NCBI GenBank assembly: GCA_900547395.1
Contig: URGP01000003.1
Coordinates: 1-64,000, forward strand
Length of the DNA: 64,000 nucleotides
Origin: an uncultured Opitutales bacterium
Lineage (GTDB): Bacteria > Verrucomicrobiota > Verrucomicrobiia > Opitutales > Intestinicryptomonadaceae
Direction of reading: 5' to 3'
Shown: piece by piece, positions 1 to 62,409 of the stretch
Numbering within the stretch: the first letter of the stretch is position 1
How the letters are laid out: each line of letters opens with the position of its first letter
The notes under the pieces: model-generated
Told to the model about the DNA's origin: nothing
What the model saw: the letters and a program-made list of their open reading frames with translations, nothing else
The model's database searches: none
Made by a program: the position numbers and the translations under genes

Positions 1-47
1 TTTGCCTGCGACTTGCGGACTTTTGTCCGCCTACGCTTGGCAAAGAA
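1..47. repeat. Partial copy of the nested palindromic repeat (apical hairpin module), cut by the window edge
   Basis: Arms TTTGCC and GGCAAA enclose a second hairpin, ACTTGCGGAC-TTTT-GTCCGC. The same apical hairpin, with loop GTAA, occurs at about 31948-31962 and 58282-58296, where the outer arms are GCTTTTAC and GTAAAAGC instead. It is therefore read as another member of the dispersed repeat family described at 31831-32145. The rest of the copy would lie left of the window. Confidence 0.55.
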
Positions 48-60
48 CAAAGCATATTTT

Positions 61-31830: not shown

Positions 31831-32145
31831 AAAAAAACGGAATAAAACGGGCGGAAAAAAGATAAAATCTTTTTGGAATTCTACAGCTACGCTTCCTTAA
31901 AAGGATTTTTTCCGCCCTCGCGCTCCATGTTGGCTTTTACTTCGACTTGCGGACGTAAGTCCGCCGACGCTCGTAAAAGCTCAACAGCATCGCGCGTTTT
32001 ATGAGGCGTAGCGACCTTTCGGTCGTGAGTCCGAAATAAAACCAAGATGGAGGGCAAGGAATGAAAAGGCTTCTTTTACGGTTGCGAAGCTCTATCTCTC
32101 ATTTCTTATGAAATGCCTTTTCATTCCGTTTTATTCCGTTTTTTT
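31831..32145. repeat. Nested palindromic repeat element, complete copy with 20-bp perfect terminal inverted repeats
   Basis: The left end AAAAAAACGGAATAAAACGG (31831-31850) is the exact reverse complement of the right end (32126-32145). Inside are successive palindromic modules. First, GGGCGGAAAAAA with TTTTTTCCGCCC. Second, an arm CGCGCTCCATGTTG with CAACAGCATCGCGCG, enclosing GCTTTTAC/GTAAAAGC and an apical GCGGAC-GTAA-GTCCGC. Third, TTTTAT/ATAAAA enclosing GCGACC/GGTCGT. Fourth, GGAATGAAAAGGC with GCCTTTTCATTCC. No reading frame is credible. The first two modules recur nearly identically at 58165-58345. The right arm supplies the final codons of the CPBP protease gene on the minus strand. 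Confidence 0.85.
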
Positions 32146-33095
32146 GGGTTTGAGAAAGAAAGGAACATAACAACAAACCCCAACATAATGAAAATGGAAA
32201 TGATTCCGTCAGTCATTCTGTTTGTTCCGAAAATCCAAATGAGATTATCATCATGAGCGATACGAAAAAGCTTCTTATACGAAAGCATCATAAAAACAAT
32301 GCCCGAATGGACGGCTACCGACGCCCACAAATTTTTAGTGCGCATATAAACCAGAGTCAACATCGCGCCGAAAACCGTAAGAGATATAAAAATTATGGCG
32401 GAAAATGTCTCAAAAATCCCGACCGAATCATAATAGGCGACCAAAAAGCCGACGTCAAAACCCGTATCGCCGTTTAGAGACTTGAAAACCCTGCTTGGAA
32501 CCTTGAAATGCTTGTACGCAAAAAATAAAGACGTGAAAAGAAGAGCGGCAACAGGCGTAAAAGCAGTGTAAAAGGAGCGGAAAATCAAACTTCTGAAAAC
32601 GACTTCCTCCAAAATTCCCACGACAACCGCGCTGAGCGCCGCACTAAAAAGCACGCTTAGAACTTTTCCCGCGCTTTTATGAGAGTAGGAAACATCGCAA
32701 AAAATAAACTGGAAAGCGAACACAAACCCCGCAAGCAACACTCCGAACAAAAAGTATTTGCAAAATATTTTAAGGGATTCTCTCTCAAATTTAAGCCCCA
32801 AATTTGAAACGGAAAAAAGCCCAAGCTTATTCATCATATATGGAATTCCGATTAAAATCGGCAGATAGCGAAGGCGGTTGAAATAAATATCCAAACGCTT
32901 GCCAAGCAAATATTCCGTAAGACCGCTCGGATGCACCGAATGCAGCCACTGCACAAACCAATAAGAAGGTGATGTCAAGAGCGCGGCAAAAAGCGTCGCG
33001 CCGAAATAAACCAGCAAAAAAAGCATCACTCCCTTGTAAGACTTCTTGTCGGGTTCAAGACCCAAAAGCATCAATTCCTTTTCCCGATTAAACAT
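32121..33095 (-). CDS. CPBP family intramembrane metalloprotease
   Basis: Predicted glutamic-type intramembrane protease of the CAAX-prenyl/bacteriocin-processing (Abi) family, 324 residues with about eight spans. The EExxxR motif is EEVVFR at 163-168. FAYKHF places the second-motif His at 196, and a late VAVHSG gives the third-motif His. Roles in the family include bacteriocin self-immunity and membrane-protein processing; the role here is unknown. The last seven residues, KKRNKTE, and the stop are encoded by the terminal inverted repeat of the repeat element at 31831-32145, so the natural C-terminus has been replaced or extended by the insertion. Confidence 0.88.
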   Translation of the reverse strand: MFNREKELMLLGLEPDKKSYKGVMLFLLVYFGATLFAALLTSPSYWFVQWLHSVHPSGLTEYLLGKRLDIYFNRLRYLPILIGIPYMMNKLGLFSVSNLGLKFERESLKIFCKYFLFGVLLAGFVFAFQFIFCDVSYSHKSAGKVLSVLFSAALSAVVVGILEEVVFRSLIFRSFYTAFTPVAALLFTSLFFAYKHFKVPSRVFKSLNGDTGFDVGFLVAYYDSVGIFETFSAIIFISLTVFGAMLTLVYMRTKNLWASVAVHSGIVFMMLSYKKLFRIAHDDNLIWIFGTNRMTDGIISIFIMLGFVVMFLSFSNPKKRNKTE

Positions 33096-49784: not shown

Positions 49785-49983
49785 CATAAAATCTCTGCGG
49801 TGTGCGTGACCTGCAACTTGGGTTCGCCGCCTTAATGACAAATATATCGGGAGCTTGACCCGCAAAATACGGCCGCCATGCCGCCGAGCGCGGAAGGCGA
49901 AAGTGTTTCGGTAGCACCCACCTGCTGACAAAAAGGCAGTAGGAACCCCAATCGCTTGACGGCATTTGCGGAGATTTTACCTA
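49785..49983 (+). ncRNA. ssrS: 6S RNA candidate
   Basis: An approximately 200-nt structured RNA between a promoter and a terminator. TAAAATCTC (49787-49795) pairs with GAGATTTTA (49971-49979). Beyond this closing stem the two arms remain largely complementary (GGGTTC with GGAACCCC), giving a long interrupted hairpin with a central open region. That is the architecture of 6S RNA, which binds RNA polymerase as a promoter mimic. The ends resemble E. coli 6S: ATCTCTGCGGTGTGCG at the start and GACGGCATTTGCGGAGATT at the end. GCACCCACCT before a small hairpin matches the 3' part of many 6S RNAs. A covariance-model search would confirm it. Confidence 0.72.
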
Positions 49984-52912: not shown

Positions 52913-52958
52913 AGAAAATATTATATTCTATGTTTATTGAATTTTTCAAGGCAAAAAT

Positions 52959-54257
52959 TTATAAAATCAAATTCAAAAACTCGGCGTTTGTTTTTGTCTG
53001 CCTCATTCTTTCGATTAAAGTTTCTACGGCGTCTTCGTTCTTTGAATTTGCCATGGCTCTTCTTAAAAATGCGGAAGCTTCCATTTCCTTGTCGGATAAA
53101 AGCAGCTCCTCGCGCCTCGTTCCCGATGCCGCAAGATTTATCGCGGGCCAAATTCTAAGCTCTGCAATTTTTCTGTCCAAAACCATTTCCATATTGCCCG
53201 TACCTTTGAACTCTTGGAAAATAAGCTCGTCCATTCTCGACCCTGTTTCTATCAGGGCGGACGCAACTATTGTAAGGCTCCCTGCCTCTTCCGTATTTCT
53301 TGCGGCTGAAAAAATCTGGCGCGGACGTTCGAGCGCGCGGATATCAAGACCTCCCGACATTGTCCTGCCGCCGCCCGACTTTGCCGAGTTGTGCGCGCGC
53401 GAAAGGCGGGTTAGCGAATCCATGAGCAAGACGACATCCCTGCCGACTTCCACAAGATGCTTCGCCCTTTCCAAAGCCAAATCGGCGATTGAAATATGCG
53501 TATTTATCGTTTCATCGTTTGAAGAAGCGAAAATTTCGGCTTTCGGCAAATCCATTCTGAAATCAGTAACCTCTTCTGGACGCTCATCGACAAGCAAAAT
53601 AATCAAATGGCATTCGGGATGATTTTCCAAAACACCGAAAGCGATGTCTTTCAAAAGCGTTGTCTTGCCCGTGCGCGGAGGGGCGACAATCAAGCCGCGC
53701 GTGCCCTTGCCTATCGGGCAAAAAATATCCATCACGCGGTTTGTCATTCTGCCGTCGGAAGTTTCCAATTTCAGTTTTTCATCAGGCGCGATTGTGGTTA
53801 AATTCTGAAAAGGCTGCACATTTTTGCGTTCAAGACAGTTTACACCGTCAATGGTTTCGATAAAGCGCAGTTTGGGGTTGCGGTGGTTCTGCGCCCTGTG
53901 CGCATTGCCGACAATATACTGCCCCCTTTTCAAGGCAAATCTGCGAACAAGCTCTCTTGAAACATAAGTGTCGGTGGGGCGGGTTTTGCCCCCGTGCTTC
54001 GGGTCGAGCAACACGCCGTTGTTGTTCACCGTGAAATCGAAAATCCCCTCGACTTTTATGATTTCAAGCTCCTGCTCGGGCTGGCGCGGCTCGCCGTTTT
54101 CGGAAAGGTTTTGGGGCCTGTTCCTATTTTGGCGCATGCGGTTGTTTGGATTAAAACCGCGCCTGCGGTTGTTCTGGCGAATGCGGTTAGAGCGGAAATC
54201 GCGCCTGTTCATGCCGTCGCCACTGCCGCCGCTGGAATTGTTTTCAAAATCTTGCAT
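52959..54257 (-). CDS. rho: Transcription termination factor Rho with Asn/Arg-rich N-terminal extension
   Basis: Hexameric RNA helicase that ends transcription. The 432 residues have a short disordered N-terminus (1-60) made of N, R and G (NRRDFRSNRIRQNNRRRGF) in place of the usual helical Rho_N domain. This is followed by the RNA-binding OB fold (EGIFDFTVNNNGVLL, YVSRELVRRFALKRGQYI) and the RecA-like motor. Walker A is APPRTGKT (192-199), and LLVDERPEEVTDF and MDSLTRLSRAHN are diagnostic. GxPPRTGKT carries Arg where E. coli has Lys. The ATG at 54257 is preferred to an upstream frame beginning at 54356. N/R-rich Rho extensions occur in Bacteroidota and Verrucomicrobiota and may promote condensates. 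Confidence 0.94.
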   Translation of the reverse strand: MQDFENNSSGGSGDGMNRRDFRSNRIRQNNRRRGFNPNNRMRQNRNRPQNLSENGEPRQPEQELEIIKVEGIFDFTVNNNGVLLDPKHGGKTRPTDTYVSRELVRRFALKRGQYIVGNAHRAQNHRNPKLRFIETIDGVNCLERKNVQPFQNLTTIAPDEKLKLETSDGRMTNRVMDIFCPIGKGTRGLIVAPPRTGKTTLLKDIAFGVLENHPECHLIILLVDERPEEVTDFRMDLPKAEIFASSNDETINTHISIADLALERAKHLVEVGRDVVLLMDSLTRLSRAHNSAKSGGGRTMSGGLDIRALERPRQIFSAARNTEEAGSLTIVASALIETGSRMDELIFQEFKGTGNMEMVLDRKIAELRIWPAINLAASGTRREELLLSDKEMEASAFLRRAMANSKNEDAVETLIERMRQTKTNAEFLNLIL

Positions 54258-54443
54258 AGAATATCTTGTAATTTTTTTAACGCCAAAAACTCCGAACAAA
54301 TCAAAGCTTAACAAAAAATAAAATTTGCGAGAAATTCGGCAATGCGCCAAACACAATTAAAACGGCGCATTAAAATAAAACAGACACCATTGAAACCATT
54401 GCCGATAATTTCGCAAGCTTTTTTTGCTTTTTATAAAGCAAAT

Positions 54444-54863
54444 TTATTGTTTTTTTTGCAAAGCGCGAATGCGCAATTTCTTTATGTTCGCCGCGCGCAC
54501 GCAGTCAACCGCCTTTGCGATGTCGCCGTATTTCGCAAGCTCGTCGCCCAAAAGCAAAACCGCCGCACCTTTATCAGATTCGGCAGTTTTTTTCAGCGTT
54601 TCCGATATTTCCTCTATCGGCATTTTTTTTTCGTTTAAATAAAATTCTCCATCTTTGCTTACCGCAAGAACAGTCGGCTTGGCGTTTTCGTCGGCTCTTT
54701 CAGTGGTTGACATTGACGGCGGATTTATTTGAACCGACCCGTTTTCCTTAAACTGCATGGTAAGCAGAAAAAAGAAAATCAAAACCGTCATGACATCGAC
54801 CATCGGCACGATGTTTACCTCGAATTTTCTTCGGCGGCGGCGGCTTCTTTCAAGAGAATCCAT
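54444..54863 (-). CDS. ExbD/TolR-family biopolymer transport protein (second set)
   Basis: A 139-residue inner-membrane protein with basic N-terminus RSRRRRRKFEVNIVPMVDVM and one span (about 17-38); the conserved Asp23 in PMVDVM lies at the membrane entrance. The periplasmic part contains a beta-rich fold. It is paired with the ExbB/TolQ-type gene 3 bases upstream. With no tonB, tolA, tolB or pal adjacent, it is unclear whether this set serves a Tol-type or a TonB-type system. Confidence 0.9.
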   Translation of the reverse strand: MDSLERSRRRRRKFEVNIVPMVDVMTVLIFFFLLTMQFKENGSVQINPPSMSTTERADENAKPTVLAVSKDGEFYLNEKKMPIEEISETLKKTAESDKGAAVLLLGDELAKYGDIAKAVDCVRAANIKKLRIRALQKKQ

Positions 54864-54866
54864 AAA

Positions 54867-55424
54867 TTATTTTTTCCCGCACATCTTGACAAGGCGTTCG
54901 GCGCAAACATCCAAGCGCGCGCAAAGAGTGTCGATTTTTCGGTACAAAAACAAGCTTCCGACAATCGCGGGAATTGCAATCAAAAGCCCAAGGACAGTGG
55001 TTGACAAAGCAAGACCCACGCCGCGCGATATTGCCTCTTGCGTGGGCGCGGACTCCGAAGAAAACACAGAAACCAAACCCGCCACAGTGCCGAGCAACCC
55101 CAAAAGCGGAGCCGCCGAAATAGAGGCGTCAAGCAGAAACATTCCCCTTTCAAGACGGGTCATTTCAAGGCGCGCAAAAGACTTTAATTCGTCGCTGTCG
55201 GGATTGTTGTCATAAAAAAACCTGACAATGCGCCCAAGCGAAGAATTGTCGTTTAAATCGCATTTTTTCAAATCTCCCGAAAGCAGGGAAGAGGCAAGCT
55301 CATTCGGAACCACTTTTGAAGTCCGCAAGGAAATCAAACGCTCCAAAATCACATAAAGCGCAATTACCGAGCATAGCCCAAGCGGATAAATGAAAACGCC
55401 CGCCCCCTGTAAGAGAAAATCCAT
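54867..55424 (-). CDS. ExbB/TolQ/MotA-family proton channel (second set)
   Basis: A 185-residue protein with three predicted spans: near 8-28 (FIYPLGLCSVIALYVILERL), 105-125 (APLLGLLGTVAGLVSVF) and 135-160 (GVGLALSTTVLGLLIAIPAI). The conserved Thr-containing channel motifs are present. It is shorter than the paralogue at 25426, with a minimal cytoplasmic loop. It overlaps nothing but lies 1 base after leuD's stop, so it is probably co-transcribed with leuD. Confidence 0.9.
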   Translation of the reverse strand: MDFLLQGAGVFIYPLGLCSVIALYVILERLISLRTSKVVPNELASSLLSGDLKKCDLNDNSSLGRIVRFFYDNNPDSDELKSFARLEMTRLERGMFLLDASISAAPLLGLLGTVAGLVSVFSSESAPTQEAISRGVGLALSTTVLGLLIAIPAIVGSLFLYRKIDTLCARLDVCAERLVKMCGKK

Positions 55425-55425
55425 G

Positions 55426-56025
55426 CTACTTCATGTAAGGGAGAGTTGACGCAAGCTTCGACGTCTGCGCTTCCGCTTCCAAAAGCTCCGCAATCGGATC
55501 CCAAACCCCGTTGCAAAGAGCCTTGCGGGAATTTTCGGGCATAGAGCATTTGCAAGAAAAATCCTTGCAGGAAATTTCGAGATGCTCCAAGTCGATAACG
55601 ATTTCCGCCTTCGGGTCTTCCTCAATCAACGCCGCGATTTTCGCGATGTCGGAAGCACTTGCCATAACGCAAGGAATGCCGATTGTCGTGGAGTTGCCGA
55701 AGAAAATTTCGGCAAAACTTTCGGCTATGATTGCACGGAAGCCGTAATGCCAAAGAGACTGCGGAGCGTGCTCGCGCGACGAGCCGCAACCGAAATTTGC
55801 GCCGCTTAGAAGAATTGAAGCTCCCTTGAAGCGGGCATCGGTAAGCGGATGCTTTTTGTCGCTGCCGTCCGCATTTTTGCGCTCGTCATAAAAAGCATAC
55901 TGCCCCAAGCCTTCAAAAGTCACGCATACCATGAAACGCGCGGGAATAATTCTGTCGGTGTCAATGTCGTTGCCGGGGACAAATACGCCCCTGCCTTCTA
56001 CTTTTTCAATTTTACGCAAAGCCAT
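55426..56025 (-). CDS. leuD: 3-isopropylmalate dehydratase small subunit
   Basis: Small subunit of the leucine-pathway isomerase; the large subunit LeuC carries the [4Fe-4S] cluster and is not in the window. The 199 residues include GNDIDTDRIIPARF near the start and LLSGANFGCGSSREHAPQSL, the diagnostic swivel-domain motif. FAEIFFGNSTTIGIP is also typical. Its separation from leuC and leuB, and coupling to an exbB-like gene one base downstream, is an unusual arrangement. Confidence 0.94.
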   Translation of the reverse strand: MALRKIEKVEGRGVFVPGNDIDTDRIIPARFMVCVTFEGLGQYAFYDERKNADGSDKKHPLTDARFKGASILLSGANFGCGSSREHAPQSLWHYGFRAIIAESFAEIFFGNSTTIGIPCVMASASDIAKIAALIEEDPKAEIVIDLEHLEISCKDFSCKCSMPENSRKALCNGVWDPIAELLEAEAQTSKLASTLPYMK

Positions 56026-56067
56026 AATTGTGTATAAAAGATAGACTCCGCGCTTTCAATGTCCACA

Positions 56068-56100
56068 AAAAAACGCGAATTCCGTTCGGTTTTCGCGCTT
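56068..56100 (-). terminator. Terminator after the EF-hand protein gene
   Basis: On the minus strand CGCGAA and TTCGCG pair across a loop containing CCGAACGG, followed by a seven-base T run. Confidence 0.75.
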
Positions 56101-56119
56101 TTGCTTTCCGTAAATTCAA

Positions 56120-56737
56120 CTATTCCGACTTTGCCTCTGCTTTCGGAAGCGCAAGCTCGTCCAAGTCTTCGGGCATAGGATGGCGGAATCTTGGTCTTTC
56201 CGGACGCATCTGCCTTTTGTCGGGGCGGAGCTGCTTTCCCTGGCGCGGAGCGGCTTCATCTGCATTGGGAGGCGGAGGAGTTTCGCCATCGACATTCGGC
56301 GGCGGCATCATTGCGCCCTTTGCGCGGGGTCTTTCGCCGCGAACCTGCGGAACTCCGTCGGGGCGTCCGCGCCTTGACGACATTTCGGCAAACATTCTGC
56401 GCTGTTTTTCGATTAACGGCACCAGTTCTTCCGCGGAAAGCTTGCCGTCTCCGTCCTTGTCAAACTCCTTCAAGACCCTCTCGGCATGCTTTTTTTGCAT
56501 TTCCTCGAAACGCTTGCGGCGTTCTTTGAGGGAAGCTTTAGCCTCCGCAAGCTCCGCTTCGTTCAAGTACCCGTCGCCGTCCTTGTCAAACTGCTTTAAC
56601 ATTCTGTTTTTGAACGACTCGGGAAGTTTTTGAGAATCCGCATTTGCGGGCTTTTCCTGCTTTGGCGCGCCGTCTTCCGCAAACATCGGCATTGCGGCAA
56701 AAGAAAGAGCGCAAATGATTGATATTATTTTTTTCAT
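56120..56737 (-). CDS. Secreted EF-hand protein
   Basis: A 205-residue exported protein with a signal peptide (about 1-20, ending AAMPMFA). Two calcium-binding EF-hand loops are clear: DKDGDGYLNEAE (about 51-62) and DKDGDGKLSAEE (about 93-104), each after a helix with the pattern MLKQF or VLKEF. The C-terminal third is P, R and G-rich (RGRPDGVPQVRGERPRAKG, PPPPNADEAAPRQG) and probably unstructured. A calcium-dependent structural or scaffold role in the periplasm is plausible. It stands alone between two terminators or promoters. Confidence 0.85.
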   Translation of the reverse strand: MKKIISIICALSFAAMPMFAEDGAPKQEKPANADSQKLPESFKNRMLKQFDKDGDGYLNEAELAEAKASLKERRKRFEEMQKKHAERVLKEFDKDGDGKLSAEELVPLIEKQRRMFAEMSSRRGRPDGVPQVRGERPRAKGAMMPPPNVDGETPPPPNADEAAPRQGKQLRPDKRQMRPERPRFRHPMPEDLDELALPKAEAKSE

Positions 56738-56900
56738 GGTTGTACTAATTTATGGGTTGTGGTTTAAATTGGTTTACGCCCATACAAACAACGGCGCAAA
56801 AAAAAAGTTTCAAATTTTTTCTCGTAATCGGCATTTAAAGGCGGATAATATAACTTGCAATTTGAAACTAACAATATTTTAATTTGGGGGATTTTTTAAT

Positions 56901-57257
56901 ATGTATCAGGTAAATTTCAGCAATCAGGCGATGGGCGAAATCAACAAGCTCTCCAAGCCCGCGCAATTCGAGATTATCGAAAAGCTCAGCTCCATCACTC
57001 CCGAAGACTTGGCGTCAGGCAAGGGAGAATTGGGGTCTTTCCACCGTTTTGGCAGAAATTTTTACAGACTGCGCGTCGGAGACTACCGCATATATTTTGA
57101 AATCAGCGAACAAAACCAAACAATTTCCGCAAACTACGTCCTGCACAAGCACACGCTTGCCGATTTTGTGTTCCGCTTCAAGCTCCCGTTTACGGAAGAA
57201 ACAATGATTGAGCAGGAAGACAATTTCTGGAAATACTTGGAATCATTGAAAAAATAA
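56901..57257 (+). CDS. RelE/ParE-like protein without a visible antitoxin gene
   Basis: A 118-residue protein. Residues 1-85 follow the RelE/ParE toxin fold: YQVNFSNQAMGEINKLSK, then FHRFGRNFYRLRVGDYRIYFEI, where the RxxxGDYRIxF pattern is a strong family match. The remaining 30 residues (FRFKLPFTEETMIEQEDNF) form an extra helix not usual for RelE. The ATG has a GGGGGA element 11 bases upstream, stronger than most in this window. pssA follows 7 bases later, and no short antitoxin gene is adjacent. It could be a toxin with distant antitoxin, a domesticated regulator, or a ribosome-acting factor. Confidence 0.75.
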   Translation: MYQVNFSNQAMGEINKLSKPAQFEIIEKLSSITPEDLASGKGELGSFHRFGRNFYRLRVGDYRIYFEISEQNQTISANYVLHKHTLADFVFRFKLPFTEETMIEQEDNFWKYLESLKK

Positions 57258-57264
57258 TAAATTT

Positions 57265-58179
57265 ATGACACAGGAAAAACCGGCACTTTGGTCAAACGTC
57301 CACCAGGCGAGCAAAATCTACATTCTGCCAAACTTCTTCACGGCGGGAAATTTGTTTTTCGGCTTCTTGTCAATAATCCTTTGCATGCGCGGCAGATTTG
57401 ACGCCCAAACGGAATCGGCAATACATACGATTGCAAATTTCTTCGTAAAGACGGATCCTAAAACAAATCCGAGCGCAAGCTACTACGTCGTTGCGATACT
57501 CGCGATTTTGCTTTCCGTTTTCTGCGACGCCCTTGACGGCAGAGTGGCGCGCGCAAGCGGCAAAACTTCTCTTTTTGGTAAGGAATTCGATTCCATTGCC
57601 GACTCCATTGCATTCGGAGTTGCGCCGAGCCTCTTGACATTCCTATTGACTTTAAATCCGATGCACGAACAGTTTTCAGAGCGCATGCAAAGTTTTATAT
57701 CGCCTATCGGGTGGTTTGTCGCGTTCATATATCTTCTTTGCGGATGCATTCGCCTTGCGCGCTTCAACGTAATCACAAACCCGTACATTGCGGGCCATGA
57801 AAAATACGAAAAAGGGGATTTCAGCGGGCTTCCCGTTCCCGCCGCGGCAGGTGCAATGTCTTCAATCGCGCTTACTATGTTGCATTTGGATCTTTGGAAC
57901 TACACGCTTTGGATTGTGCCTGTAATGCTGCTCATTTCATTTTTGATGATAAGCAACATACCTTATCCGTCATTTAAGCATATAAACTGGAATACCAGTG
58001 CAAGAATTCGCTCTTTTGTCGCGATAATAGCATGCATATTTTTAATTCTTTACATGGGTGTTTACAGTTTCACGATTATATTTTTGTTGTACATATTGAT
58101 TCCGCCGATGATGTATTTGCCCAAGTTATACAGTATTTTGTCATATTTATTCGGCAAAAAATTGAAAAAAACGGAATAA
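57265..58179 (+). CDS. pssA: CDP-diacylglycerol--serine O-phosphatidyltransferase
   Basis: Makes phosphatidylserine, precursor of phosphatidylethanolamine. The 304-residue membrane enzyme has the CDP-alcohol phosphatidyltransferase motif DGx2ARx8Gx3Dx3D at 91-113 (Asp91, Gly92, Ala95, Arg96, Gly105, Asp109, Asp113). YILPNFFTAGNLFFGFLSI precedes it, and about eight spans follow. The final residues KKTE and the TAA lie within the terminal repeat of the palindromic element that begins at 58165. The natural C-terminus may have been altered by insertion. Confidence 0.93.
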   Translation: MTQEKPALWSNVHQASKIYILPNFFTAGNLFFGFLSIILCMRGRFDAQTESAIHTIANFFVKTDPKTNPSASYYVVAILAILLSVFCDALDGRVARASGKTSLFGKEFDSIADSIAFGVAPSLLTFLLTLNPMHEQFSERMQSFISPIGWFVAFIYLLCGCIRLARFNVITNPYIAGHEKYEKGDFSGLPVPAAAGAMSSIALTMLHLDLWNYTLWIVPVMLLISFLMISNIPYPSFKHINWNTSARIRSFVAIIACIFLILYMGVYSFTIIFLLYILIPPMMYLPKLYSILSYLFGKKLKKTE

Positions 58180-58345
58180 AACGGGCGGAAAAAAGATAAA
58201 ATCTTTTTGGAATTCTACAGCTACGCTTCCTTAAAAGGATTTTTTCCGCCCTCGCGCTCCATGTTGGCTTTTACTTCGACTTGCGGACGTAAGTCCGCCG
58301 ACGCTCGTAAAAGCGCAACAGCATCGCGCGTTTATTCCGTTTTTT
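58165..58345. repeat. Nested palindromic repeat, short copy (two modules)
   Basis: The left end AAAAAAACGGAATAAA, then modules 1 and 2 as at 31831 (GGGCGGAAAAAA/TTTTTTCCGCCC and CGCGCTCCATGTTG...CAACAGCATCGCGCG), are almost base-for-base the same. The copy then ends with TTTATTCCGTTTTTT, skipping modules 3 and 4. One difference in the inner arm region (GCGCAACAG against GCTCAACAG) is visible. It overlaps the last codons of pssA. Confidence 0.85.
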
Positions 58346-58963
58346 ACGTACCCAAAGTTTCCACCTATCAAATAACTTGACGCAATCCCGTACCCATTCC
58401 AATTTCGCGTATCAAGTAGCTGAATTTAAATTAGGACTTATTTTTTACACAACCTATCAAGCAACTTCGCAATAAAAGATTTAGGATTCAAACATGTCGA
58501 AATGCAAATGTGAGTACAAATGGATAAAAAATCTATCTACTACGGAAGCGTTAGCTGTAAAATATGTGATATTTTATAGGTGTGAACTTTGGGACGCAAA
58601 ACCAAAAAACAAACAGAGACCCAAGCCCTGATTAAAAAAAATATATTTGATACGCAGTGTTGGAATGGAGACGGAATTTCATTAAGTTGCTTGATAAGTT
58701 GCGAGTGTGTAAAAAACGGAAGAAATGCCCGATGCTCTTGTGTTTTATGAGGCGTAAGCGACCTTTGGTCGTGAGTCCGAAATAAAACCAAGATGGAGGG
58801 CAAGACCACGCTTGCGTGGGTAGCTTTGCGAAAGCAAAGAGCCGAGCGTAGCGAGTGCCGAGACTTGCGAAGCAAGCGAGTACAAATGAAAAGGCTTCTT
58901 TTACGGTTGCGAAGCTGTAAAAGTTGTGATGCTTGATAGGTGTGGGCTTTGATACGTAAAAAA
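58340..58963. repeat. Composite inverted-repeat element of about 620 bp between two palindromic copies
   Basis: The left end TTTTTTACGTACCCAAAG (58340 on) reappears inverted at 58934-58963, with the shared core CACCTATCA. Inside, further copies of ACCTATCAAGCAACTT-like sequence occur in both orientations, for example around 58456 and 58685. Near 58745-58920 there are modules 3 and 4 of the 31831 element, without their full arms, plus added hairpins such as CCACGC-TTGC-GTGG. No protein-coding frame is supported. The structure is that of one inverted-repeat element inserted into, or fused with, another. Confidence 0.7.
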
Positions 58964-59143
58964 CGGAATAAACGCGCGATGCTGTTGCGTTTTGCGAATG
59001 GGGAGCTGTACTTTGTACTGCCCCCTGAGCAAAACCAACATGGAGCGCGAGGAATGGGCAAAAAATCTATCTACTACGGAAGCGTCAGCTCTTTATCTTT
59101 TAGATTTTTTGTTTTTTGCCCATTCCGTTTTATTCCGTTTTTT
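58958..59143. repeat. Nested palindromic repeat, reversed copy with different stem arms
   Basis: AAAAAACGGAATAAA at the left and CCGTTTTATTCCGTTTTTT at the right bound this copy. Module 2 is reversed (CGCGCGATGCTGTTG ... CAACATGGAGCGCG), with inner arms GTTTTGC/GCAAAAC and an apical GGGGAGCTGTAC/GTACTGCCCC. Module 4 arms are GGAATGGGCAAAAAA with TTTTTTGCCCATTCC. Arms differ from those at 31831 but remain fully complementary. The right end abuts the stop of the sugar transferase gene. Confidence 0.8.
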
Positions 59144-59774
59144 ATTTTTTGACGCGAGGGTCATGATCTACCCCGCCAACGTCGTCAAGCCCTTGAACGT
59201 CCGTATATTTCGTGCTGTCATCTGCAAACAACACCGCAAAAACTGTCAGAAATATAATTTTTAAATCGAGCCAAAACGAAATGTTGTCAACATATTCAAT
59301 GTCAAAAGAATACTTTACACTATATTTTAAATTGTTGCGACCGTTGACCTGGGCAAGCCCCGTAATGCCCGGCAAAACACTCGACCTGCGGCGGTACTGC
59401 TTGGGCATACTTTCAACAGTGGAAATCATAAGCGGACGAGGGCCTATCATAGACATGTCGCCCTTCAAGACATTGAAAAGCTGGGGAAGTTCGTCGATTG
59501 AAAAACGCCTCAAAAAAGAGCCGACTTTGCAAATTCTGTATTCGTCGGGAAGAAGATTTCCGTCTTTGTCAAAAGCGTCTTTCATCGTTTTAAGTTTGTA
59601 AACATAGATTTTCTTCTCGTACAAACCTCCGCGTTCTTGAATAAACAACGCATTTTTTGAAACGAAAATTTTTGAGAGCAAATAACCTAACAGCAAGATG
59701 GGAGATAAAGCCACAATCAAAGAAACAGACATAAAAATATCCATCGCTCTTTTAACTTTTAAATACCCCTTCAT
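59142..59774 (-). CDS. Bacterial sugar transferase (polyprenyl-phosphate phosphoglycosyl transferase)
   Basis: Starts surface-glycan assembly by moving a sugar-1-phosphate onto undecaprenyl phosphate. The 210 residues correspond to the short, monotopic catalytic form: a reentrant N-terminal helix (VKRAMDIFMSVSLIVALSPI), then RGGLYEKKIYVYKLKTM, FSIDELPQLFNVLKGDMSMIGPRP with the Asp-Glu pair (DE), and PGITGLAQVNGRN. The sugar (GlcNAc, Gal or another) is not readable. It is isolated from other glycan genes here, although a DegT aminotransferase gene is present at 20059. The stop sits at the edge of the palindromic repeat. Confidence 0.92.
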   Translation of the reverse strand: MKGYLKVKRAMDIFMSVSLIVALSPILLLGYLLSKIFVSKNALFIQERGGLYEKKIYVYKLKTMKDAFDKDGNLLPDEYRICKVGSFLRRFSIDELPQLFNVLKGDMSMIGPRPLMISTVESMPKQYRRRSSVLPGITGLAQVNGRNNLKYSVKYSFDIEYVDNISFWLDLKIIFLTVFAVLFADDSTKYTDVQGLDDVGGVDHDPRVKK

Positions 59775-59862
59775 TCGAGAATCGTATTAATAAAAATATA
59801 AGTGTAAATTATTCCCATTTTTACAAAAAAGTAAATATTTTTTTATCAGCCGGAAATCGGAC

Positions 59863-59898
59863 AAAAAAAGCGGCGGAAGGGATTTCCCTTCTGCCGCC
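59863..59898 (-). terminator. Terminator after gyrA
   Basis: On the minus strand GCGGCAGAAGGG pairs with CCCTTCCGCCGC (one mismatch) around a four-base loop, followed by seven T residues. Confidence 0.92.
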
Positions 59899-59913
59899 CA
59901 AAAGAGCATTGAA

Positions 59914-62409
59914 TTATTCCTGCGCAGGTTCGGAAGACGAAGCCTCTGCATTGCCTTCAACGCCGCCTTCTTCCGCGGAGACATCGTCGCCGTCGCGGGT
60001 ATTGACAACGCGCGATATGCCGACAAGCTTGTCGCCTTCCGCAAGGTTAATCAGGCGAACGCCCTGAGTTGTTCTGCCGATTACCCTGATGTCCTTTACG
60101 GGAGAGCGAACAGCCTGCCCGCCCTGCGTGAACATCATAATTTCATCGTCTTCGCGCACTGACAACGCACCCGCAACACCGTGAGTTTTGATTGCAATAA
60201 CGCCCGAACCGCCGCGGTTTTGAAGCCTATATTCATCGTAATTCGTGCGCTTGCCCTGCCCGAGCTCGCCCGCGATTAGCAGAGTTGAACCGCTGTCAAC
60301 CACCACTACCGCCTTGACGCAGTCGTTTTCCTTTTTGAGGGTTACACCCCTTACGCCGCGGGTCGCCCTGCCCTGCGCGCGCAAGTCGTTTTCGCTAAAT
60401 CTAATCGACATGCCCGCATAGGTTATAAGCACGACTTCGGAATCTTTTTCAGCCAAAACAACGCCAATCAAGTCGTCGCCTTCGTCCAAATTGATGCCGA
60501 TTATGCCGCCTTTTCGGCAGTTTTTGTAGTCGGAAAGAACTGTCTTTTTAACGACGCCGTTTTTGGTTGCCATAATGAGGCTCTTGTCGGCATCGTCCAA
60601 ATTCTTTACGCAAATCATAGCCGCGACTTTTTCATCGGGCTGCAAGTCCAAAACATTCTTGATTGAACGCCCCTTTGAAATTCGGGTGCCTTCGGGGATT
60701 TCGTAAACCTTGTGGACATACACTCTGCCGTTGTTCATAAAGAACATGATATAATCGTGCGTGGATGCGGTAAATAGATGCTCTATGAAGTCTTCGTCGT
60801 ACTGCCCCGAACCGATTACCCCCTTGCCGCCGCGCTTTTGGGAGCGGTACGCGCTTACGCCCGTGCGCTTTATGAAGCCGTTGTGCGAAACCGTAATGAT
60901 GCAGCCTTCGTTTGCGATTACGTCTTCCATGCGGAATTCGCCCTCTTCTGCGACAATCTGCGTGCGGCGGACACCTGCATACTTCTTGCGCATTTCCTGC
61001 AAGTCTTCTTTGATTACCTTCAAAAGCTTATGCTCGTTTTCAAGAATTGAACGGTATTCCTGAATGAGCTTCATAAGCTCCATGTATTCGTTTTCGATTT
61101 TTTCGCGTTCGAGACCCGTGAGCTGGTAGAGCCTCATATCCAAAATTGCGTTTGTCTGGCGTTCCGAAAGCGGATATTTCGCCATCAAAGAAGATTTCGC
61201 CTCGTCGCGGTTTTTGCTTGCGCGGATAATTTTTACAAAATCGTCGAGGTTGTTGAGCGCGATTTTAAAGCCTTCCAAAATGTGCGCCCTGTCTTCCGCC
61301 TTTCGGAGAAGGAACTGCGTGCGGCGGTAAATGACGTCGCGGCGGTGCTCGATGTAGCACTCTATCATTTCCTTGATGTTCATCTGCTTTGGCCTGCGCT
61401 TGTCAAGGGCAAGCAAAATCGCACCGAAAGAAGATTCAAGCGGTGTATGCTTGTAGAGCTTGTTCAAAACGACTCTCGGAGCTTCGCCGCGTTTAAGCTC
61501 GATGACAATGCGGGTGTTCTTGTCGGACTCGTCGCGCAAGTCACTGATTTCTGTAATGACTTTTTCGCTTACCAAATCCGCGATTTTTTCGACCAATGCG
61601 GCGCGGTTTACATTGTAGGGAATTTCAGTGATTACAATCTGTTCCTTGCCGTTTTTAAGGTCCTCGACATGCGCAACGCCGCGCATTTTGACGATGCCCT
61701 TGCCCGTTTTCATATAGCTTTCGATGCCGCTTCTGCCGGTAATTACGCCGCCGGTCGGGAAGTCGGGACCGGGCAAAAGCTTTATGATTTCGTCAATGGA
61801 AATCGAAGGGTTGTCGATAATCGCGCAAGTTGCATCTATAAGTTCGCCAAGATTGTGCGGAGGAATGTTTGTCGTCATGCCGACAGCGATGCCCGTTGAG
61901 CCGTTCATTAGAAGGGCGGGCAAGGCGGATGGCAAAACGGACGGCTCCGTCGTCGATTCCTTGTAGTTCGGCACAAAGTCAACCGTGTCTTCGTCGATGT
62001 CGCGCAAGAGCTCTTCGGCAAGCGCGCTCAATTTACACTCCGTGTATCGGTATGCCGCCGCGCTGTCGCCATCGATTGAGCCGAAGTTGCCCTGGGGCAT
62101 TACGAGCGGATAGCCCATGACCCAATCCTGCGCAAGGCGCACCAATGTGTCGTAAACGGAGCTGTCACCGTGCGGGTGGTAGTTTTTAAGAACTTCGCCG
62201 ACGACGCCCGCGCACTTGTCAAAAGCCCTGTTGTGGAGCAGCCCTTCGCGCAACATTGCGTACAAAATTCTGCGCTGCACAGGCTTCATGCCGTCGCGCA
62301 CATCGGGAAGCGCGCGGGAAATAATGACCGACATCGAATAGTCGATGTATGCGCCCTGCATTATGTCCGTAATGCTGGCAGGCAATACTTTTTCGTTTTC
62401 TGCGTACAT
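59914..62409 (-). CDS. gyrA: DNA gyrase subunit A
   Basis: Breakage-reunion subunit of gyrase, 831 residues, normal length. The catalytic Tyr122 lies in AAAYRYTE. The quinolone-resistance region reads [10 protein letters not shown] at 78-87 with Ser83 and Asp87, the drug-sensitive residues of E. coli numbering. IEYM-type repeats of the C-terminal DNA-wrapping domain are visible, including the GyrA box [10 protein letters not shown] (near 670-680). The tail is acidic. It follows gyrB by 18 bases and has AGAAGGA before the ATG, so the two are co-expressed. Confidence 0.96.

Follow-up and report, generated by a model that had tools for sequence, protein, structure and literature searches.

Small palindromic mobile repeats (YPAL, ERIC, RUP, Correia and REP) are known, as are palindromes that shuffle, from the portions of the literature consulted here. 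YPAL/RU-2 of Yersinia and Erwinia (168 bp) occupies target sites that span or adjoin a dyad symmetry, and both occupied and empty sites are known (PMC2229807, in excerpt). Like the cassettes described here, it is small, gene-free, palindromic and mobile, the last being a probable property of the cassettes. It differs in being listed as without terminal inverted repeats (TIRs) and with target duplications of 3-26 bp (PMC2229807, in excerpt), and stop-codon starts, exchangeable arms and tandem chains, all present in the cassettes, are absent from the excerpted description. ERIC, RUP, Correia and other TA-type MITEs share with the cassettes TIRs, a length of 100-200 bp, the lack of genes and a dispersed distribution (PMC2229807, in excerpt). 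Unlike these MITEs, the cassettes have several TIR sequences, a covarying core and, in the best-assembled carrier genome (G008), starts at stop codons, and no IS630-type DDE transposase was found in the 19 genomes of the family.

REP, BIME and REPIN elements are extragenic palindromes that form composite arrays, and some REPs supply stop codons (PMC3733652, in excerpt), all points of likeness to the cassettes. However, the cassette unit measures ~200 bp as compared with 20-40 bp for a REP, its ends consist of an A-tract plus CG and not of a 20-40 bp stem-loop tagged by GTAG or CGTC, and no Y1 transposase was found in 19 family genomes. Integron attC sites lie behind stop codons, and their single-strand shape is conserved more than their sequence. 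The cassettes resemble attC sites in both respects, but no integrase scored over the cut-off in the family genomes and the genes that precede the cassettes are dispersed housekeeping genes. GC clusters of yeast mitochondria and palindromes of green-algal plastids also merge and shuffle without a named mobiliser (PMC4478555, PMC7043297, both in excerpt). These are far shorter than the cassettes (42 nt for GC42, stems of 8-13 nt in the plastome), and the excerpts describe neither a core arm nor stop anchoring. Within the portions available of the open-access PMC literature on palindromic repeats, Opitutales/Verrucomicrobia, stop-codon repeats and mobile terminators, the cassette family is not described. 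The combination of a ~200-bp unit, exchangeable arms, a covarying shape, an oriented start at a native stop codon and (in G008) a terminator-like hairpin is new to the literature surveyed.

The window analyzed is a 64,000-nucleotide stretch of DNA from an uncultured Opitutales bacterium (contig URGP01000003.1). A preliminary description had reported a 315-bp palindromic element with exactly inverse ends (element 1, Table 1), and this is borne out. The ends are 20-bp perfect inverted repeats, which lengthen to 21 bp with the flanking C/G, and the element folds into an outer stem with three arms. The folding z of the DNA is -8.4 and that of the RNA, for either strand, about -9, and none of 100 shuffles matches the element in fold stability. 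The interior is modular, as had been claimed, but the modules are not four in succession: they comprise a pair of hairpin arms and two core arms, one whole and one partial. The claim that no gene lies inside is nearly right, except that the Rce1-like gene ends inside the right TIR, which holds its last codons, and, in a second copy (element 2), the left TIR contains the stop of a CDP-alcohol phosphatidyltransferase gene. Up to position 31999, element 1 corresponds to one half, the left, of a pair of units placed face to face; it then passes, at a GTTT microhomology, into a different core and on to the right arm. This second core (31996-32058) is 89% like 58742-58804 within element 2. The 315-bp element thus likely arose by deletion between two face-to-face units.

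Table 1. Features of the palindromic elements and adjoining genes in the window
Feature	Position	Strand	Remarks
Third element, piece cut by window edge	1..60	+	core model 32.5 bits, E = 5e-6
Element 1, composite palindrome	31831..32145	.	likely deletion derivative of two face-to-face units
Left TIR of element 1 (A-tract + stem)	31831..31850	+	
Hairpin arm (arm 1a)	31849..31917	+	foot 12 bp, perfect
Core arm a	31918..31995	+	model R1, 94.3 bits
Partial core arm b	31996..32057	-	model match 31979-32057, 51.9 bits; GTTT microhomology at junction with core a
Hairpin arm (arm 1b)	32058..32127	-	foot 13 bp, perfect
Right TIR of element 1	32126..32145	-	includes final codons of Rce1-like gene
Rce1-like (CPBP) gene	32121..33095	-	stop codon within right TIR of element 1
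CDP-alcohol phosphatidyltransferase gene	57265..58179	+	stop codon 12 nt inside left TIR of element 2
Element 2	58165..59143	.	two end units face to face between convergent genes; further unit, spacers and small hairpins between
Left unit of element 2	58165..58345	+	TIR, arm 1, core 58252-58329, inner TIR'
Core arm, middle unit of element 2	58727..58803	-	
Right unit of element 2	58957..59143	-	inner TIR', core 58974-59050, arm 1 59051-59126, TIR
Bacterial sugar transferase gene	59142..59774	-	TAA stop = start of element 2 right TIR

Two further copies in the window that had been proposed earlier are supported. The related copy 26 kb away (element 2) has a left half (58165-58333) that is 99.4% identical to that of element 1 (31831-31999), and the core model matches the piece at the left edge. 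The latter is co-linear with a contig (C266) of a related genome, G001, where the unit begins at the stop codon of a gene whose end is PEP-CTERM-like. With this piece included, six copies in the window match a covariance model of the core arm. The stacking of modules, described as unusual, has a simple origin in element 2: each of the two convergent genes has its own unit, so the two units face each other and form a large palindrome. Neither of the doubts raised in the preliminary description, that the element might have no further copies or that such palindromes might be as frequent in shuffled sequence, proved justified. Copies occur in three genomes, and the window contains 14 exact inverted arms of at least 13 bp within 1.2 kb, where 30 Markov shuffles average 2.9; the longest, in element 2, is 37 bp (16 bp in shuffles). 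Next to the edge copy, positions 61-335 form another palindromic region, an imperfect one (arms 63-82/311-330, 85%, and 73-102/285-314, 77%); the co-linear G001 contig differs there, and no similar copy was seen among the loci examined.

Reading of the copies in the window and in three genomes (G001, G004 and G008) by eye indicates a recurring unit of ~180-200 bp with the order TIR, arm 1, core arm, TIR'. The TIR consists of an A-tract followed by a stem, and TIR' of the matching stem followed by a T-tract. The core arm is 78 nt long and contains two internal loops, of which CTCCAT/AGCATCG is nearly invariant and the second lies further in. TIR' is often followed by a spacer containing CAACCTAT or a related form, and some copies hold small extra hairpins within loops. 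One G008 unit folds according to the proposed anatomy with z = -9.4. The TIR stems vary among subfamilies yet remain complementary (CGTGCGAG, CGTGTGTGG, CAGCGAGG and CGGGCAGGAA, with their inverses), and several TIR sequences coexist in one genome. Tandem arrays with a period of ~196 bp are present. A variant unit with a GC-rich extra hairpin insert occurs in G008 (C18:29802-30081 and C9:76433-76152) after two unrelated genes, one of them the GAPDH gene, with 98.2% identity over 282 bp.

The search of related genomes that the preliminary description had proposed yielded further copies. Among 19 genomes of one Opitutales family of gut bacteria, the core model identified 11 copies in G001, 9 in G004 and 25 in G008, and none in the other 16. 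Several G001 contigs terminate in, or just ahead of, an element, so the copy counts are lower bounds. Stricter filters applied to an order-level sample of 273 genomes gave matches in the same three genomes only. A TIR-pattern scan of the genome collection returned three contigs, two of them from the Opitutales MAG RGIG9512 of yak cecum (G001); one G001 contig is co-linear with window positions 52955-60336 at about 86-89% identity, so the window derives from a relative of this MAG. A Nitrospirae hit was dropped, as only the TIR and about 50 bp are in common. The exact core pattern occurred in 3 of 384 sampled genomes of the class, and the two hits outside G001 (G299 and G546) were read as chance and dropped. 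The 315-bp element had no match at E 1e-5 in the phage and plasmid collections, and six exact core-pattern matches in viral contigs, which represent one conserved stretch lacking the core helices by our reading, were also dismissed as chance.

Within G008, identity between units that follow unrelated genes reaches 99.5% (199 bp), and two loci have in common a composite of two units, 426 bp long and 96.7% identical. Many of the near-identical matches run from the stop codon to TIR' or the spacer; others start or stop inside an arm.

The main feature of these elements is their anchoring to stop codons, which the preliminary description missed; the mapping of copies relative to gene ends that it had proposed brings this out. 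The analysis of G008 covers 1.08 Mb and 39 arm-side TIR ends, of which 22 are at a TAA stop, 11 abut another unit, 1 is at a contig edge and 5 fall elsewhere. Thus, 22 of the 27 free arm-side ends coincide exactly with the TAA of an ORF of 195-880 aa, and in all 22 cases the arm side is towards the gene. Of the TAA triplets in G008 that lie at the stop or within the next 60 nt, 26% are stops (243 against 685), and under this expectation 22 of 27 would have a probability of about 3e-9 (our own arithmetic). The five remaining free ends, including one that is overrun by an ORF reading on into the element and one after the apparent end of another element, count against the reading as stop-codon cassettes. 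In total, 34 gene ends in G008 are covered by repeats: the 22 counted TIR ends and 12 others, including convergent neighbors at the far side of a chain, which stand outside both the count and the set of 308 element-free genes used below. At C21:100958, C5:58051 and C9:66996-67793, convergent neighbor genes reach right up to the distal side of an element chain and lack their own unit at that point.

The genes before the G008 units, named from sequence, presumably include those for GAPDH, triosephosphate isomerase, ClpP, ClpB, FabH and 2-isopropylmalate synthase, and four that we take to have PEP-CTERM-like ends. The GAPDH gene has the element directly at its stop in G008, and the element is absent from 15 readable relatives, including the carrier G001, in which the end of the protein is almost unchanged (the locus is unreadable in G013, and two genomes gave no match). 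Conversely, the CDP-alcohol phosphatidyltransferase gene is followed by an element in the window and in G001, and none was seen within 170 nt after the stop in G008 and 14 others, with no match in three genomes. The stop rule is looser in the window, G001 and G004, and this also counts against the reading as stop-codon cassettes. Among 21 hand-picked ends, 14 adjoin an ORF and 7 adjoin none; 2 of the 14 are G001 counterparts of window ends and are not independent. Seven of the 14 are exactly at the stop (TAA, once TGA), six have the stop 9-22 nt inside the TIR, and one has it 13 nt ahead. One of the 14 (L014) has its core side towards the gene.

A terminator-like hairpin sits in the first arm of the G008 units. 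A simple scan for a hairpin plus T-run in the first 200 nt was positive on the sense strand at 21 of the 22 stops, including one (C18:9318) at which the scan stopped at a different hairpin, and on the antisense strand at 2 of 22. Native G008 terminators begin a median of 20 nt past the stop (126 found among the 308 element-free genes). In the window, the same scan found no classical terminator in element 1 and one in element 2, which is chance level (1.4 in shuffles), and this too counts against the cassette reading. Given the sense-strand hairpin with its T-run and the fixed orientation in G008, we predict that the units act as transcription terminators for the preceding gene.

The helices of the core arm covary. 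In 16 cores (15 distinct) aligned by plain MAFFT, 87% of cells hold the 21 proposed pairs, and double changes number 50 as compared with 16 in shuffles. In an alignment of 37 distinct cores that was fitted to the structure, and is hence biased towards it, the pairs are formed in 90% of cells, with 138 double-changed cells (44 in shuffles) and a covariation score of 0.42 (0.10 in shuffles). Kinship alone can beat such shuffles without any structure; controls in which the partner was slid by 1-3 columns retain the kinship, and these score at most 0.09. The number of pair types is at the shuffled level in both alignments. Among 724 cells of the core pairs, G-T occurs in 10 and A-C in 17 (39 each in shuffles). 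An RNA helix should accept G-U more readily than A-C, and G-T is no commoner than A-C, which points to conservation of the core as a DNA shape and not as RNA.

These observations could be brought together as follows, in a reading to which we give about even weight: element 1 is a deletion-shortened copy of gene-free palindromic cassettes that start at stop codons and that move as TIR-bounded, shape-recognized, predicted terminators. TIR-bounded units would move as folded DNA by means of a putative agent, with the cassette recognized through its folded shape. After insertion at a stop codon the native terminator would be lost, and the cassette would take over as the terminator of the gene ahead. 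If this is so, the cassettes represent portable 3' ends, that is, selfish or domesticated DNA that lands with base precision at stop codons and can rewire transcription termination without damage to genes. The family would serve as a natural test case for the way an element locates gene ends and for the conservation of shape at the DNA level with exchangeable arms.

The agent of movement was sought in four families (PF01797, PF13358, PF00078 and TIGR02249), in genomes that are in pieces. A transposase with matching termini, as envisaged in the preliminary description, did not emerge from these searches, which counts against the favored reading: the Y1/RAYT transposase (PF01797; positive in 5 of 14 known control genomes) and the IS630-type DDE_3 domain (PF13358; 3 of 14) were each found in 0 of the 19 fragmentary family genomes. 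Integron integrase (TIGR02249) scored above the cut-off in 0 of 19, a weak test as the 14 control genomes also gave no positive. Reverse transcriptase (PF00078) was found in none of the three carriers and in 1 of the 19 genomes, the non-carrier G005, which has domains at C86:2472-3104 and C245:7675-8190. Group II introns start with the consensus GUGYG, and some G008 TIRs begin similarly; this reading was rejected, as such starts are missing from other subfamilies and reverse transcriptase gave no match in the carriers.

We favor TIR-bounded movement of folded DNA, and the main rival is copying of the palindromes by host replication and repair. Here template switching and ectopic gene conversion would spread the palindromes without a dedicated enzyme, with one arm serving as template for the other, a route that we find rather doubtful. 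It is consistent with the GTTT microhomology where the two cores of element 1 join, with the shuffled chains of modules and with the lack of a transposase among the families searched in the 19 fragmentary genomes. The replacement of a half-element at a fixed site fits this route and also the favored reading. The left half of element 2 has 99.4% identity to its paralogue in element 1 but 66% to the G001 half at the site of element 2 (measured with the copy of the half in element 1; flanks about 86-89%), so the half-element was replaced after the window and G001 lineages split. An inversion of the element between the window and G001 had also been considered and was dropped, since a palindrome matches itself both ways and the element and its flanks are co-linear. 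A similar proposal has been made for an algal plastome (PMC7043297, in excerpt), and palindromic GC clusters merge and shuffle in yeast mitochondria (PMC4478555, in excerpt). However, template switching alone does not account for free ends that lie so sharply at stop codons (22 of 27), or for their constant orientation at these sites. The base-exact choice of stop codons is accounted for by neither folded-DNA movement nor template switching. A mobile DNA element could, in an extension that we consider unlikely, have the translation stop codon itself as its target, led there by the point at which translation finishes and not by DNA sequence. The guide would be the mRNA, the ribosome on it or the strands that become exposed in its wake, and the element would then always arrive as a ready-made 3' end plus terminator.

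Similarly improbable is an ordinary MITE of a lost TA-inserting transposon (of IS630/Tc1-mariner type, as for RUP, ERIC and Correia), with selection keeping the copies at gene ends. The earlier analogy with MITEs is apt insofar as the cassettes are a repeated palindromic family of near-identical, gene-free, TIR-bounded copies of ~200 bp in dispersed positions; a REP/BIME route is not supported, with PF01797 found in 0 of 19 genomes. Many G008 copies have TA on both sides, where a target-site duplication is indistinguishable from the TIR, a point that also weighs against the favored reading, and RUP is thought to be mobilized by IS630-Spn1 at TA (PMC2229807, in excerpt). The TA-inserting origin is opposed by the lack of a DDE_3 match in the 19 fragmentary genomes, the multiple TIR sequences per genome and the covarying core. 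Selection among TA insertions also fits poorly with the placement of 22 of 27 free ends at stops, when only 26% of TAA triplets near gene ends are stops.

Very unlikely, in our judgment, is a structured RNA of 3' untranslated regions (an ncRNA or mRNA-stability element) spread by conversion. The constant orientation after G008 genes and the core covariation would suit such an RNA, but G-T pairs are no commoner than A-C, and in G008 the core lies downstream of the terminator-like hairpin in arm 1. Rfam gave no match in the element region at gathering and, at a relaxed threshold, only matches below gathering (best E = 0.25), so an RNA-family identity was dropped. The sole Rfam match of the window at gathering is a 6S RNA (RF00013, 73.5 bits) at 49789-49978 on the + strand. 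Least credible of all are REP/BIME elements of a RAYT or integron attC-like sites, despite the GTAG REPs that often provide the stop codon of flanking ORFs (PMC3733652, in excerpt) and the attC-like position and shape discussed above, given the results for PF01797 and integrase in the 19 fragmentary genomes and the dispersed housekeeping genes in front.

TIR-bounded cassettes of this kind may also account for the frequent breaks of contigs at the elements in these genomes. Separate from the cassettes, G008 contains a CRISPR-like array (C26:40422-41447) of direct repeats of ~36 nt with spacers.
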